From: a virus
Strand: one strand, 5' to 3'
Virus record (IMG/VR): IMGVR_UViG_3300047550_004624
Coordinates: 1-22,218 of that record
DNA length: 22,218 nucleotides
Shown in pieces: positions 9,009 through 18,308 of this stretch. Each line of letters opens with the position of its first letter. Position 1 is the stretch's first letter. The notes below the pieces were generated by a model. That model was not told where the DNA came from and did no database searches. It saw only the letters and a program-made list of their open reading frames with translations. Made by a program: the position numbers and the translations under genes.

Positions 9009-9932
9009 TTATAAGTAATCAAAGCCGTAATCTGGTAATTTTTGTACAGGAAATCCGTTAAAATTACTAAAGGCATATGTTCCATTTTGTTTAATCATGC
9101 CTTCCGCAACATCGCTATGAATTAAGAAAGAGCCGTCGGGGATCGGTCCCCAGGCTGGATGACCACCATCATTCCATTTGCCCCAGCTATTCTGCACTAA
9201 GAATGATGTGTCTCCATTAGTATCGTCACAAGCTATCCAAGCCATACAATGAGCCCAGCTACCGCTAGTTCTAGCAAATCCTTTACTATCTCTTTTATTA
9301 CTAAAACCATAATTAGAACATACTGCTATTCCATAACCATTCGCTAAGGCATCTCGCGCTTCTTCAACAGTTTTAATTAATGATACTGTTTTAATTTGAT
9401 GGTCGTTAGCAAGATCTAAAACTTTGTCCGGTACGCCTCTGCCACCCCACCCTGCACCAAGCATTCCATCATATTTACTTAGGTCAACAACTCCCTTATA
9501 GTTTTTGCGAACCAGAATTCCACCAATCTTGTTAACAAATTCAGCCGCCTTACTACCTGTCATACCCTGACCACTCCAGCCACGAGCACCATAAATAGCT
9601 TCTGTAGCGCCCCTAGCTATCCAACTTTCTTTTTCACCCAGTATATCGATCTCTACTGCTCTACTAACATCACAAGCATTTCTTGTTCCATGGCTTACGC
9701 AATCACCAGTAATTTGTCGTTCTTCATAAGGCTTCTTATCAAACTTTAATACGCTTTTGTATGGCGTTGATAATTTACCTTTGCCACTATCTGTAATTCT
9801 AGAACTAGCATCACCAAAGAGTGGATATTTTAAAATTTCCATCAAGTGATCAAATTCTAGCTGATTCCATATGGCTCCTTGAAAGCCTTGTCTATAATTG
9901 TTATAAAGATCTGCTGGTGATAAACGAGCCAT
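9009..9932 (-). CDS. Papain-like (C1 family) cysteine peptidase
   Basis: This is a 307-residue protein with a complete papain-type catalytic set. Gln73 (oxyanion hole) and Cys78 sit in RQITGDCVSHGTRNACD, His228 in GSWAHCMAWIACD, and Asn248 in VQNSWGKWNDGG. The order Gln-Cys-His-Asn and the NSWG signature are those of clan CA, family C1. It has no signal peptide. About 65 residues precede the peptidase domain, and about 45 follow the Asn region. It could cleave peptide cross-links of the host wall as an unusual endolysin, process virion proteins, or act in the host cytoplasm. It lies in a run of membrane-protein genes with a holin-like member upstream, which favours a lysis role, but that is inference. 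It abuts the upstream gene with no gap. Confidence 0.92.
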   Translation of the reverse strand: MARLSPADLYNNYRQGFQGAIWNQLEFDHLMEILKYPLFGDASSRITDSGKGKLSTPYKSVLKFDKKPYEERQITGDCVSHGTRNACDVSRAVEIDILGEKESWIARGATEAIYGARGWSGQGMTGSKAAEFVNKIGGILVRKNYKGVVDLSKYDGMLGAGWGGRGVPDKVLDLANDHQIKTVSLIKTVEEARDALANGYGIAVCSNYGFSNKRDSKGFARTSGSWAHCMAWIACDDTNGDTSFLVQNSWGKWNDGGHPAWGPIPDGSFLIHSDVAEGMIKQNGTYAFSNFNGFPVQKLPDYGFDYL

Positions 9933-10804: not shown

Positions 10805-11187
10805 AGTCCAGCCTCTCTTTTAATAAAAACGCCCGTATTTCTGAAAATTGTAACCGTAGCATCAATAGTAGCGCTCACCATGATCATGAGGATATTTTTG
10901 ATGTACTTATGTATTATAGGCTCAACAAGGTTAGGAACAAAAGGAACATCGATTATTAAAAATACTTTATCATAAAAACTATTTAATAATTCTAACGCTA
11001 AAGCTTTTTTATCTGGATTGCTTAGATCGTTACCTATAGCCTCTATAATCTGTACGACACTAGCTGTTGTTAATTGTAAAAGTTTCCACGCTTCGCCAAG
11101 AGCAAAACGCTTAACTTCATTTACTCTTTCTTTTGTGCTGACTATTAGTTTTTCTACTTCTGCTCTTATTAGTTCTTGGCTTGACAT
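10801..11187 (-). CDS. Hypothetical protein with hydrophobic C-terminal half
   Basis: This is a 128-residue protein with a charged helical N-terminal half (about 1-70). A conspicuous segment follows, rich in Val, Ile, Phe and Pro (LIIDVPFVPNLVEPIIHKYI, about 77-96). A second hydrophobic stretch (ILMIMVSATIDATVTIF, about 98-114) and a short basic end (KREAGL) complete it. The long hydrophobic part could lie on or in the membrane as an amphipathic hairpin, but not as an obvious two-helix holin. Its ATG at 11187 follows AGAGGT at usable spacing, and its first 71 bases lie inside the 3' end of the holin-like gene in another frame. That overlap is unusually long for this genome. I do not recognise the family. 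Confidence 0.83.
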   Translation of the reverse strand: MSSQELIRAEVEKLIVSTKERVNEVKRFALGEAWKLLQLTTASVVQIIEAIGNDLSNPDKKALALELLNSFYDKVFLIIDVPFVPNLVEPIIHKYIKNILMIMVSATIDATVTIFRNTGVFIKREAGL

Positions 11188-11476
11188 CTTTTTTTACCTC
11201 TTTTTCTATAACAGCTGGTTGCTCTATCAATTTATTTGACTCAGTTTGATTACTCCACCAAATTTTCTTAATTTCATTACGACCCTTAACATATCTAAAT
11301 AATACAGTTAATTGACCAATAATTAGTATTAAGGCTTCTAGTCCTCGACTAGTTTCTTGAATCAGATCTTCTTTCTGAGAATTTTCACTAATTAATCCTA
11401 ATAAGTATGCGCCACTAAATAAGAAACTTACTAGGGTAAACCAAAATTCACTAGTTTTGTATCCTGGTTTAATCAT
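11117..11476 (-). CDS. Two-helix membrane protein, holin candidate
   Basis: This 119-residue protein starts at the ATG complement to 11474-11476. It has two membrane helices (about 10-29, EFWFTLVSFLFSGAYLLGLI, and 43-62, GLEALILIIGQLTVLFRYV) joined by a polar loop. A long strongly basic C-terminal tail follows (ending KSRSRKTNSQHKRKSK). Two helices with both ends on the cytoplasmic side and a basic tail is the topology of class II holins, which open the membrane at lysis. The open frame extends 50 codons further upstream, to 11626. That part lies within the metzincin gene and lacks its own ribosome site, so I start after that gene's stop, where an AAGAAAG site is placed. Holin function is inferred from topology and cassette position. 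Confidence 0.75.
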   Translation of the reverse strand: MIKPGYKTSEFWFTLVSFLFSGAYLLGLISENSQKEDLIQETSRGLEALILIIGQLTVLFRYVKGRNEIKKIWWSNQTESNKLIEQPAVIEKEVKKDVKPRTNKSRSRKTNSQHKRKSK

Positions 11477-11494
11477 ATTTATATACACTTTCTT

Positions 11495-11521
11495 ATTATA
11501 AAATATTGATTTTGCCAACAA
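11495..11521 (-). promoter_or_regulatory. Weak candidate promoter before the membrane-protein cassette
   Basis: On the minus strand TTGTTG (complement 11516-11521) is followed after 15 bases by TATAAT (complement 11495-11500), 18 bases before the holin-like ATG. The spacer is shorter than the optimum, and the -35 matches only four of six. It overlaps the last codons of the metzincin gene. It could drive the cassette, but AT-rich sequence yields such matches easily. Confidence 0.3.
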
Positions 11522-14321
11522 GCTGAGATTTTGATTGATTTTCGTCGAAACCACAACCAAGATGAATATTCGGAGTATTATTGGCAATATCAGTCTGTTG
11601 CGTGTTCGTTTGTTGAATACTAACAATATTAAAATTAGTGTCGAGTGTTGGAATTCCTTCGCTTTCGCCAGGATTTATTTCTTCATACCCAAAATCTACT
11701 AAATTTTTTAAAGTTAATTGGCTTAGTACTCTAGTTTCTCCAGGATTTGGAGCTGAACCAACCATTAATTCATTTAATACGCCAGGATAATTGGGTTTTT
11801 CTGTTGATGGTGAGAAATATCTAGATTGATTTTCCCAATGAGAGTTAACAGTGCCTGATCCTCCAGTTATTTCTAATGGTATATTAATTGGTTGATATAA
11901 ATAGCTAGATAATCCTGTGATACTATTATATGCCATTTGTGTTTGCTCATATGCTGTTCCATTTAAAAATCCACAGGATGTATTATAAGTATTTTGTGGA
12001 CATATTGTTGGCGATGGTGGATATATATTCCAAAACACCCCAACTCCTAAAGCGTGTAATAACTCATGACTAATAATATCTATCCAATTAGAAATATTAT
12101 ATCTATTTAGATAAAATAAATTAATATATACTGAATAACTAATAGTATTAATTTTTATAGGATTAGAATTACTAAGACTTACATAAGAATTTGGTGCTGC
12201 TTTAGCAACGTATAACGCAGATTCTGCATACTCAAAATTAATAGAGTCAGCAATAGCTCCTTGAAATTGTTCGTAGCCACTAATTCCTCTTATTCCGCTT
12301 ATAACATCATCTTTATATTTAATAAATTTACTTAATCTATTAACTGCTGAGAATATATATTCTTCCCAAGGAGACATTGACAATATTTGATTATTATTTA
12401 GTGCAGTGTTGAGCGCGCTACTAATGCTGTCAACATCAAATAAATATGTCAAAGACTCTGGTGGCGGTCCTTCTGGCATAATCATACCGCTTAGTGTTCC
12501 GGGACTTGTACCAATAGCATTAATAGCGTAAACTTTGAATCTATAATTGTTACCATTGATTAGACCAGATACATGAATAGAATTTGTCGTTGCTGCTACA
12601 GTCGTAAGTTCTGTCCAATCACCTAAAGGAAATCCTGTGGAAGCGATCTCAATTTTATATGAAGTTATTGGAGAGCCGTTATCATTAGCTGGTGGAGTCC
12701 AATATACTATAGCTGCTGCATTTAAAGCTTGTGCTGATACAGAGACTGGTTGTTCAGGAGCTGTTGGTTGTGGAATAATTGTGCTGCTTGGTAAGCTGTA
12801 TGGTCCTACACCAATAATATTTGTGGCAGCTACTCTAAATTTATAAGAAGAGCCATTAACTAGTCCAGATATTAGCGTAGAGGTTCCAGACACAGGAACG
12901 CCATAGTTTGTCCATGTTGTTCCATTATTTGATGATATTTGTATTCTATAATCAACAATAGGTAATCCCCCAGTATTAGTAGGAGTACTCCACGATAAAT
13001 TTACCGATTGATTTAGTGGGGTTCCTTGAATATTTGTTGGAGGCGCAGGTGGCGTAGATCCAGGAGTTACAGATACTGATAGCTTACTAAATTGTCCAGC
13101 ACCAACAATATTTACAGCAGCAACTCTAAAAGAATAAGATTGTCCTGGTGTTAAATTACTGATGGTGGCCGTGGTATTAGTATTATATCCATCATTATAC
13201 TGTATCCAACTAGTTCCGTCGTAATATTGAATAATATAATCTAGTAACAATACATTTAAACCGCCAGTATTTGTTGGTGGTGTCCAAGCTATTGTAACAG
13301 AACCTTCACCCAAGCCCGTAATTGCCGGTTGGGACGGAACATCTGGCGGAGATATTGGTCTTGCTAGAGCTTTATTACTCCATACACTACTACCTCCCGG
13401 AACATTATATGTAGTAGATCCCATAACATTATAAGCTCTAATTGTAAAGGCATAAAATAAACCATCTTTTAAGTTTGTTACTCTATATAAATTAGTATTA
13501 TTAGTATTGGCAACCCTTCTGGTTGTAAGATCAAAAGGAACAGAATTTTGTGGTGTTGGAATATATGCCTGGGCTTCTGCTAAGGTTTTAAATCCTGCGC
13601 ATCTTATGCCATATTCGACAATTGCTTTTCCGCCATTGTTTGTTGGAGGAATCCATGACAAATCTACCGATTGATTGTTTCCTAAACGAATTGCTCTAAG
13701 ATTCGTTGGAGCAGATGGTGGGGCAAATACTAATACTGTCTGTGGTGCGCTTGATTCTCCCCAACCACTTCCATTTTTTGCAGATACTCTACAAAGATAT
13801 GTAGTTCCATTAACTAAACCTGTCAATATGTAAGAAAATGTTGTTGAAGTTATATCTGGTGTTGTTGTCCATGATGTTCCGCCATTAGACGAATATTCTA
13901 TCCTGTATGCTGAAATATTAGTAGATCCAACGTGGGTTGGCGCCGACCATTTTATGTTGATACTTCCGATATTGTTTGCTGCAACAATATTGATTGGTGC
14001 CGCTGGTGTTGCTGAAAGAGTTTTAACTTGAAGAGTTTTTGAGCTATATGGCCCTATTCCTCTGGTTGGATGAGCAGCTCGTATTCTGAAAGTATAAAAA
14101 AGAGATGGATTTAAGAGTTGTGCTGGATTGCCAACCGCAGTAAAAAAAGCGGTTGTTACTGACATACCATACAATCCGGCAAGTTGCCAAGAAACACCAT
14201 TATTGGTGCTGTATTGTAATTCATAATATCCTTTAGTTCCGGGATCTGCTCTTGTCCACGTTAAAGAGAAAGATAGTATACCAGGTAGTACTGAAGTAAT
14301 AGTGGTGACTGGAACGGCCAT
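11496..14321 (-). CDS. FN3-repeat protein with C-terminal metzincin-like zinc protease domain
   Basis: This 941-residue protein of two parts is probably a virion surface component. Residues 1-616 are six fibronectin type III-like units. They are recognised by repeated ends such as GLVNGTTYLCRVSAKN and VNIVGAGQFS and by the W-x-P-P-T-N-x-G turns (for example WTPPTNTGG at 346). Residues about 625-885 hold HELLHALG (His752, Glu753, His756), a third His in SHWEN (828), and a Met-turn-like NELMVG (850-855). A C-terminal LKNLVDFGYEE follows. That order, including H-W and E-L-M, resembles leishmanolysin-like (M8) metzincins rather than a chance HExxH. A protease carried on the particle could cut host surface proteins. 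No signal peptide is seen. The ATG at 14321 follows AAAGGA. Confidence 0.88.
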   Translation of the reverse strand: MAVPVTTITSVLPGILSFSLTWTRADPGTKGYYELQYSTNNGVSWQLAGLYGMSVTTAFFTAVGNPAQLLNPSLFYTFRIRAAHPTRGIGPYSSKTLQVKTLSATPAAPINIVAANNIGSINIKWSAPTHVGSTNISAYRIEYSSNGGTSWTTTPDITSTTFSYILTGLVNGTTYLCRVSAKNGSGWGESSAPQTVLVFAPPSAPTNLRAIRLGNNQSVDLSWIPPTNNGGKAIVEYGIRCAGFKTLAEAQAYIPTPQNSVPFDLTTRRVANTNNTNLYRVTNLKDGLFYAFTIRAYNVMGSTTYNVPGGSSVWSNKALARPISPPDVPSQPAITGLGEGSVTIAWTPPTNTGGLNVLLLDYIIQYYDGTSWIQYNDGYNTNTTATISNLTPGQSYSFRVAAVNIVGAGQFSKLSVSVTPGSTPPAPPTNIQGTPLNQSVNLSWSTPTNTGGLPIVDYRIQISSNNGTTWTNYGVPVSGTSTLISGLVNGSSYKFRVAATNIIGVGPYSLPSSTIIPQPTAPEQPVSVSAQALNAAAIVYWTPPANDNGSPITSYKIEIASTGFPLGDWTELTTVAATTNSIHVSGLINGNNYRFKVYAINAIGTSPGTLSGMIMPEGPPPESLTYLFDVDSISSALNTALNNNQILSMSPWEEYIFSAVNRLSKFIKYKDDVISGIRGISGYEQFQGAIADSINFEYAESALYVAKAAPNSYVSLSNSNPIKINTISYSVYINLFYLNRYNISNWIDIISHELLHALGVGVFWNIYPPSPTICPQNTYNTSCGFLNGTAYEQTQMAYNSITGLSSYLYQPINIPLEITGGSGTVNSHWENQSRYFSPSTEKPNYPGVLNELMVGSAPNPGETRVLSQLTLKNLVDFGYEEINPGESEGIPTLDTNFNIVSIQQTNTQQTDIANNTPNIHLGCGFDENQSKSQLVGKINIL

Positions 14322-14475: not shown

Positions 14476-14787
14476 TCATGTCGGTGTCGGCACCGGCCTA
14501 ACAAACAACGCCTCCAGACCAGCCTTGAGATCACTACCCAGCACCTCAAGCACGCGGGCCTCCACCTGATCCTGTGTGTAGTCACCAGCCGTGTCGTAGG
14601 CATCGCCTTGCCAGAGGGTCACAGGGCGTGGACAGGGAAGGAGCCGCGCCTCCGCGATCCGACGCTTGGCGTTGTCGATGATGGTGATGTCCAGTTCGGT
14701 CAGCGTGAGCGGTCGTGGGGTCTTGACCTCGCCGTTGATGCCGGTGTACGGTGGACGCTGGATGGTAACAGGAATTGGAAGATTCAT
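14476..14787 (-). CDS. Hypothetical protein in GC-rich insert
   Basis: This is a 103-residue protein of unknown function. It begins MNLPIPVTIQRPPYTG, followed by a Thr/Pro-rich turn region and helical stretches (LDITIIDNAKRRIAEARLL at about 32-50, and LGSDLKAGLEALFV at about 83-96). It ends in a Pro/Thr tail. There is no Cys pair or membrane segment. The gene is visibly GC-richer than most of the window; for example, bases 14521-14580 have 35 G/C of 60. It also uses GC-ending codons that its neighbours avoid. The ATG at 14787 is preceded by TTAGGAG, two bases after the stop of the next gene upstream. The pair therefore forms one small unit, probably imported together. Tail-associated context suggests a minor tail or fibre partner. 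Confidence 0.8.
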   Translation of the reverse strand: MNLPIPVTIQRPPYTGINGEVKTPRPLTLTELDITIIDNAKRRIAEARLLPCPRPVTLWQGDAYDTAGDYTQDQVEARVLEVLGSDLKAGLEALFVRPVPTPT

Positions 14788-14789
14788 GG

Positions 14790-15470
14790 TTAGATTACTC
14801 CTAAAATTGAGGATCCGTTGATGCCGCGAGGAATCGGATACGGGGTACGGTTGGCGTAGGTTTCGGTGCCGGCAATCACACCGTTTGCCGTGCAGTACGA
14901 ACTGTCGTTGAATGTGGCGTCGCCGTCTACTGGGCCGTCGCAGTACGAACTGTCGTTGAATGTGGCGTCGTAATTTACGCTCATGTATGTCCCGCTGCGA
15001 GAGTTGTGATTGAATGTTCCGTTTCCCATAAGATAATCACCAAAAGATGACGTATCGTTGAAAACAGCATCGCAACCGATGAACTGCTGAATAACAGTTC
15101 CGCCATTGACAGTAAGATGTCCGGTGATTGTTAAAGCACCATTTTGTCCATAAGAGTTGCATCCGTCCGCTATTACTTCTCCTCCGGCCACCCCGCACTC
15201 CATGCTGCTTGCCGGGCCAAAATAGGCAACCCCCGGGACTGTGATGGTTTGACTGCTTATTGCAAAATTCCCGCCCAACACCGTCAGGTTTGCGACGGTT
15301 GGTGCCGATCCGGCGTTTGTCCAGACATCGGCTGCGACCACCACATCGTCACTGCTTGTCGGCAAACTAGTGGCAGGAACGCGAGTGCCGGTGAAGTTGT
15401 CCAGCCGCCAGTTGCCTAGCGTGGCCCAATCGTAATCGCCAGTGTCGTTGTCGTAGTAGAGTGTTGCCAT
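14790..15470 (-). CDS. Repeat-rich fibre-like protein in GC-rich insert
   Basis: This 226-residue protein is predicted to be mostly beta-strand. It begins MATLYYDNDTGDYDWATLG, a Trp/Asp-rich start. A regular series of short strands and turns follows, like a right-handed beta-helix or related solenoid (ANLTVLGGNFAISSQTI, GALTITGHLTVNGGTVI). Near the end DATFNDSSYC occurs twice, 16 residues apart, and related FNDTSSF and FNHNSRSG earlier suggest more diverged copies. It contains Cys at several turns. The gene is GC-rich compared with its surroundings. It lies among tail-fibre genes, so a receptor-binding or fibre-tip role is likely but not shown. The ATG at 15470 follows GAGGAAATAAT. Confidence 0.82.
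   Translation of the reverse strand: MATLYYDNDTGDYDWATLGNWRLDNFTGTRVPATSLPTSSDDVVVAADVWTNAGSAPTVANLTVLGGNFAISSQTITVPGVAYFGPASSMECGVAGGEVIADGCNSYGQNGALTITGHLTVNGGTVIQQFIGCDAVFNDTSSFGDYLMGNGTFNHNSRSGTYMSVNYDATFNDSSYCDGPVDGDATFNDSSYCTANGVIAGTETYANRTPYPIPRGINGSSILGVI
14892..14970 (-). repeat. 31-base exact direct repeat inside the fibre-like gene
   Basis: Two identical 31-base copies, at 14892-14922 and 14940-14970, are offset by 48 bases. That is exactly 16 codons, so the repeat is in frame and encodes DATFNDSSYC twice. Exact identity over 31 bases in a third-position-variable gene suggests a recent duplication, or one kept identical by recombination or slippage. Confidence 0.9.
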
Positions 15471-18095: not shown

Positions 18096-18308
18096 TTAGC
18101 CTCCTACTACTGTTTCGTTACCAATACCATAGTAATATGATGGATCATCAAATCTTGTGTCATATTTAGCTTCTATATCACTAATAGTTGGGGTATTTTT
18201 AACATAATTATTTGATAAACCATATTCTCCTGTTGGAGTATATGATACTATTAAAGTACCATTTTTTATAGGATTACTTGAGATCGCTTTAGTTATATCA
18301 TTGGCCAT
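18096..18308 (-). CDS. Small hypothetical protein
   Basis: This is a 70-residue protein of unknown function. It begins MANDITKAISSNPIKNGTLI, with short beta-prone segments, a central NNYVKNTPTISDIEAKYDTR, and an aromatic end DDPSYYYGIGNETVVGG. There is no Cys, membrane segment or signal peptide. The ATG at 18308 follows AAGGAGAA, the best ribosome site in the fibre region, so it is probably well expressed. The stop lies inside the ribosome site of the next fibre gene. Small proteins in this position are often fibre-associated chaperones or capping proteins, but the sequence does not say which. Confidence 0.75.
   Translation of the reverse strand: MANDITKAISSNPIKNGTLIVSYTPTGEYGLSNNYVKNTPTISDIEAKYDTRFDDPSYYYGIGNETVVGG

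Follow-up and report, generated by a model that had tools for sequence, protein, structure and literature searches.

What kind of domain closes a fibronectin type III (FN3) array beside the tail-fibre genes of a virus, and what would such a protein do? The question arises from a window of 22,218 nucleotides, the whole stretch of DNA analysed here (IMG/VR record IMGVR_UViG_3300047550_004624), for which a preliminary description had proposed six FN3-like domains fused to a leishmanolysin-like (M8) zinc protease. The ORF list and the translation place one long reading frame on the minus strand, read from 14321 to 11496, and its product divides as follows.

11496..14321, minus strand: FN3-array and M8-type metzincin protein, 941 aa (ORF and translation; Pfam fn3)
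12476..14321, minus strand: array of six FN3-like repeats spanning residues about 1-615, of which the first is divergent (Pfam fn3 and repeat HMM)
11496..12488, minus strand: leishmanolysin-like (M8) protease domain and Cys-containing C-terminal tail, residues 612-941 (homologue alignment A2, structure model, Foldseek and hhalign)

Pfam fn3 matches the protein in five stretches (2.5e-62), and an HMM made from four of the protein's own repeats matches at residues 32-97, 104-199, 200-309, 323-420, 422-516 and 519-615. The first of these, at about residues 32-97, is the divergent one, reaching i-E 4e-4 when scored with a model of the remaining repeats; five are strong, such that the proposed six FN3-like domains are five clear and one divergent. 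The array does lie beside fibre genes: the gene stands between tail-fibre-like proteins and a holin-like membrane gene, and its FN3 part alone accounts for the matches to PHROG tail families (minor tail at 2.2e-36, central tail fiber J at 1.4e-31). Named phages matching the whole reading frame, Microbacterium phages and others, were rejected as relatives because similarity is confined to FN3. By eye, the protein shows neither an obvious Sec signal peptide nor space for a pro-domain behind the array.

The residues that suggest a zinc protease are found in three places.

12045..12068, minus strand: predicted zinc-binding and catalytic motif HELLHALG, residues 752-759 (H, E, H and G invariant in 25 homologues)
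11838..11840, minus strand: putative third zinc-ligand His, H828 in SHWEN (invariant; aligned with the third His of 1LML)
11763..11765, minus strand: Met-turn methionine, M853 in NELMVG (invariant in the alignment)

H752, E753, H756, G759, H828, W829, M853 and G878 were all checked in the sequence, and the positions first reported for the motif, the third His and the Met-turn proved exact: H828 lies 72 residues past H756, M853 25 past H828, and the domain closes with DFGYEE. Detection needed this reading of motifs, as sequence searches with the window domain named no protease family. The domain alone matched nothing in Pfam, NCBIfam or PDB sequences, even at E 10, and retrieved from PHROGs just a weak membrane-protein match (0.071); the window protein alone did not match Pfam PF01457.

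An alignment-based search found relatives in 36 viral contigs, and the phage M8 family in IMG/VR comprises 29 distinct proteins. Twenty-five aligned phage homologues (alignment A2), 23-38% identical to the window domain, share twelve invariant columns: A48, G77, A95, H141, E142, H145, G148, G150, H217, W218, M242 and G267 in domain numbering, to which 611 is added for the whole protein. Invariance of three His, the Glu and the Met at such low identity indicates strong constraint on these residues, and the claim that the motif is more than a chance HExxH holds, with H, E, H, G, G, H, W, M and four further columns fixed. The second and third His are about 52-88 residues apart in the homologues (the automatic value for L011 is a mis-pick, its HW lying further on). 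Almost all homologues have HELGH where the window has HELLH. This unusual motif might point to an adhesin, a binding module that descends from a protease and has little or no catalytic activity. Decay of that kind does happen, since one paralogue (L006, 10924-20112) reads HALGH and has lost the Glu. However, all A2 members, the window included, keep the full ligand set, and we consider such an adhesin very unlikely.

Profiles and structure carry the family assignment further. Homologue L004, 37% identical to the window domain, scores 21.3 bits against a Pfam M8 cut-off of 21, and 10 of the 25 alignment members match PF01457 at E<=1. Against a profile of three bacterial proteins above the Pfam M8 cut-off, hhalign gave 99.4% (E 1.3e-21) for the A2 profile and 96.6% (E 5.6e-10) for the window sequence alone. 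An AlphaFold model of the protease domain (pLDDT 82.4, pTM 0.87) has leishmanolysin, 1LML, as its sole PDB match below 1e-3 in Foldseek (E 1.1e-4, probability 1.00), with agreement that is local (TM 0.39, rmsd 8.5); a search of a viral structure library gave matches to the phage relative and to four giant-virus proteins, at probability 1.0. The M8-type reading is thus borne out, and profile comparison and the predicted model together support an M8 (leishmanolysin) fold for the C-terminal domain. Membership of M10, suggested by MMP-7 matches in a PDB profile search, was rejected because coverage was limited to the HExxH helix region. Matrixins (M10) and other compact HExxHxxGxxH metzincins were also set aside, as HELLHALG is followed by VGVFW, which has no His.

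Leishmanolysin (GP63; M8, 1LML) and the window domain share the HExxH helix, a third His past a long insertion, GG.G..H, an (D/N)ELM Met-turn and a D-(L/F)-G-(F/Y) end. Unlike GP63, the window protein is without a pro-domain or GPI anchor and is joined to an FN3 array, and its His-to-Met insertion is 25 residues versus 11 in the 1LML alignment. The bacterial M8 proteins of the reference profile (Planctomycetota, L039 and L041; Myxococcota, L040) are alike in motif order, as in the profile match, but are cellular genes with short His-to-Met spacing.

M8 peptidases occur in kinetoplastids, animals and bacteria and, by fold, in giant viruses. The giant-virus proteins matched by predicted structure, among them E3T5D0 of Cafeteria roenbergensis virus and a 'putative metallopeptidase' of an Aureococcus virus, differ from the window protein in belonging to viruses of eukaryotes and in their architectures. 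Closer at hand, relatives were met in one annotated phage, AP013547 (E 4e-9); BAQ94410 of the uncultured phage MedDCM-OCT-S31-C1 (Nohivirus S31C1), annotated as hypothetical, has a homologous domain (E 4e-9) and its gene adjoins a terminase and a 'cell wall/surface repeat protein', but it has a proline-Asp linker where the window has FN3. A survey of 224 jumbo phages names zincins that include SprT-like, ArdC-like and vWA-linked metallopeptidases (PMC7824862). Searches for phage together with leishmanolysin, Peptidase_M8 or virion-associated metalloprotease, with subscription papers largely outside their scope, found no report, and phage M8 proteases appear previously unreported as far as the literature was searched.

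Across the family the M8 domain is fused to FN3, PT/S-rich, RCC1, BNR and FGE-sulfatase modules. The FN3-M8 fusion recurs, by Pfam fn3, in L009 (a 187-kb record with two tandem copies) and L020 as well as in the window, and one FN3-like repeat each was seen in L021, L032 and L036 with the window-repeat model only (L032 has no Pfam FN3 at 1e-4). The domain is joined to RCC1 and FGE-sulfatase modules in L004, to RCC1 in L005 and to a Sortilin/BNR-type region in L006; a trypsin-like N-terminal region in L031 and a PA-like insertion in L020 were recognized by eye only, and L007 is a nearly free-standing M8 protein of 291 aa. Two or three tandem M8 copies occur in L009, L021 and L024, which fits a diversifying host-interaction gene. 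The C-terminal Cys tail was also sought on proteins that are not proteases, with no convincing carrier.

Additional oddities were met within the family. One reading frame (L022:9140-10858) encodes a circularly permuted M8 domain, the HWEN/NELM/DFGY half preceding the LFNKNSW/HELGHALG half, on a single contig where an assembly artefact is possible. The degenerate L006 copy is the C-terminal M8 domain of a 3062-aa protein and adjoins an intact copy. A contig titled as a Bifidobacterium breve MAG (L038, CALPIE020000194.1) encodes a phage-type M8 protein and a PT-rich repeat protein; it is probably mis-binned phage DNA and was left out as a bacterial reference.

A poorly resolved tree, with cellular sampling of three sequences only, places L032, alone of the phage rows, on the bacterial side; support for the split between phage and bacterial M8 is modest (86/92). 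The M8 sequences of the window's own lineage, lineage A, do not form one group (three changes; zero bootstrap trees with one), a scatter that would fit repeated exchange as far as so poorly resolved a tree can be read.

Lineage A comprises the window, L020, L021, L027 and L036, and in it the M8 gene lies between fibre genes and a lysis-like cassette, in the order protease, small membrane protein, more small proteins, papain-like protein, dCMP deaminase and ribonucleotide reductase. The borders of the slot that holds the gene can be placed in the window.

14476..14787, minus strand: conserved 103-aa protein on the upstream side, which bounds the accessory slot on the left (homologues in L002, L004 and L023; 104-aa homologue in L044-L050)
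11117..11476, minus strand: 119-aa small membrane protein, downstream, holin-like by position, which bounds the slot on the right (relatives without the protease align again from its start codon onward)

Elsewhere, the M8 gene is near HNH, nuclease-like, terminase and portal genes in lineage C (L002, L004, L023) and, in lineage B (L016, L024, L031), among genes common to the three contigs and upstream of a tape-measure protein. Thus, M8 genes mostly sit in virion-gene regions where the context is readable; L009 is less clear.

Presence of the gene varies sharply among close relatives. Eighty lineage loci were fetched through the papain-like neighbour, and the protease is upstream of the membrane gene in just 3 of the 76 that have that gene: L042, a near-identical copy of the window, and L117 and L121, which hold the L036 protein. 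Seven loci with 96% identity in the papain-like protein (L044-L050) run from the 104-aa gene directly to the membrane gene with no protease, and their nucleotide similarity to the window restarts at 11477, the start of the membrane gene. Six-frame searches covered whole records: nine picked as carriers gave 1-3 M8 matches, and six others, 66-233 kb in size, gave none, although some of the records are possibly incomplete. M8-free records of the lineage include ones of 197-233 kb. Searching lineage B by its downstream gene returned only the already known contig. The M8 gene is therefore optional in the window's lineage, and the nearest relatives are cleanly without it.

These observations bear on whether the enzyme could work in maturation or self-processing, cutting the fibre protein itself or other proteins of the virion while the particle is assembled. 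Phages do use proteases in head maturation, and jumbo-phage zincins have been proposed for it (PMC7824862). However, conservation in close relatives, as looked for in an assembly or maturation protease, was not what we found: the gene is absent from L044-L050 and from the six 66-233 kb records, the nearest relatives have similar fibre and lysis regions without it, and M8 copy number per record ranges from 0 to 3. A dispensable gene of variable copy number, fused to display-type modules, argues against maturation, which we regard as improbable, and for contact with something outside the cell. The two functional guesses of the preliminary description thus part ways: action on host-surface proteins fits better, and self-cleavage or maturation is weakened by the close relatives without the gene.

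Contact outside the cell could also follow from release at lysis, as a soluble late M8 protease that is not particle-borne. Such an enzyme would attack envelope proteins, extracellular matrix or debris, and in this way promote lysis or spread or clear away decoy receptors. The gene directly precedes a holin-like, lysis-like cassette, so that its position is equally compatible with such release and with particle display; additionally, some homologues are nearly free-standing (L007), and there is a precedent in Listeria Mtz, a metzincin derived from a phage, which makes cells more prone to lyse (PMC8235301). That protein resembles ours in being a phage-linked metzincin, but has a compact HExxHxxGxxH motif, a signal peptide and a TIMP-like lipoprotein partner, and neither FN3 nor a fibre locus. 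The window protein, by contrast, has no obvious signal peptide, FN3 arrays, like the other modules of display type, are characteristic of structural proteins, and lineages B and C have the gene with head and tail genes, apart from any lysis cassette observed. We consider release as a soluble protease the main rival, though an unlikely one, and note that FN3 and gene position alone do not prove particle attachment.

The explanation that we favour, with confidence about evenly balanced, is a particle-borne accessory M8 enzyme, carried on FN3, that acts outside the cell and clips a host-surface protein layer. On this view the gene belongs to the late region of a large uncultured tailed phage and encodes an accessory protein, whose six FN3 modules bear a predicted C-terminal zinc endopeptidase of leishmanolysin fold. 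The enzyme, presumably active, would either be displayed by the particle or reach the outside of the cell in some other way, with the FN3 array as a spacer or adhesin, and may open the particle's path to its receptor by trimming a layer of protein or glycoprotein on the host surface. Its target is probably a host-surface protein. Such an enzyme would be a protein-directed analogue of the polysaccharide depolymerases borne on phage fibres, which share the proposed role of opening a host surface layer but cut polysaccharide, where the window enzyme is a predicted peptidase. More tentatively, and with less than even probability, phages of this and other large lineages may arm the particle from a swappable fibre/lysis slot with M8 enzymes on FN3 or PT-rich stalks, a proteolytic equivalent of capsule depolymerases that sets which protein-coated hosts can be infected.

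The existence of about 30 phage relatives suggests that infection by some phages involves an enzyme that cuts surface proteins. Should the particle carry the enzyme, this would offer a testable route past surface layers made of protein, as well as a source of virion-borne proteases. The optional slot provides a natural with/without comparison among otherwise similar phages.

Host assignment was attempted from neighbouring genes. The phage collection contained no match to the papain-like neighbour, and ribonucleotide reductase matches were all below 60% identity (best about 46%), and thus no host is assigned. That neighbour (9009-9932, minus strand) is a 307-aa lineage core protein that adjoins the holin-like genes and has invariant GDCVSHG, H228 and QNSWG; this papain-like Cys-His-Asn pattern makes it a candidate endolysin. 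It had no Pfam match, and structure prediction gave no usable model (pLDDT 41).

Two further observations concern the neighbouring genes of the lineage. The product of 14790-15470 (minus strand) and lineage loci L044, L054, L074 and L120 are of very unequal lengths and have a common C-terminus, GINGSSILG(V/I), that resembles a shared tail tag. Proteins of about 70 aa, which start MANDI and end near RFDDPSYYYG, recur between lineage fibre genes (window 18096-18308, minus strand; L036:9017-9238).
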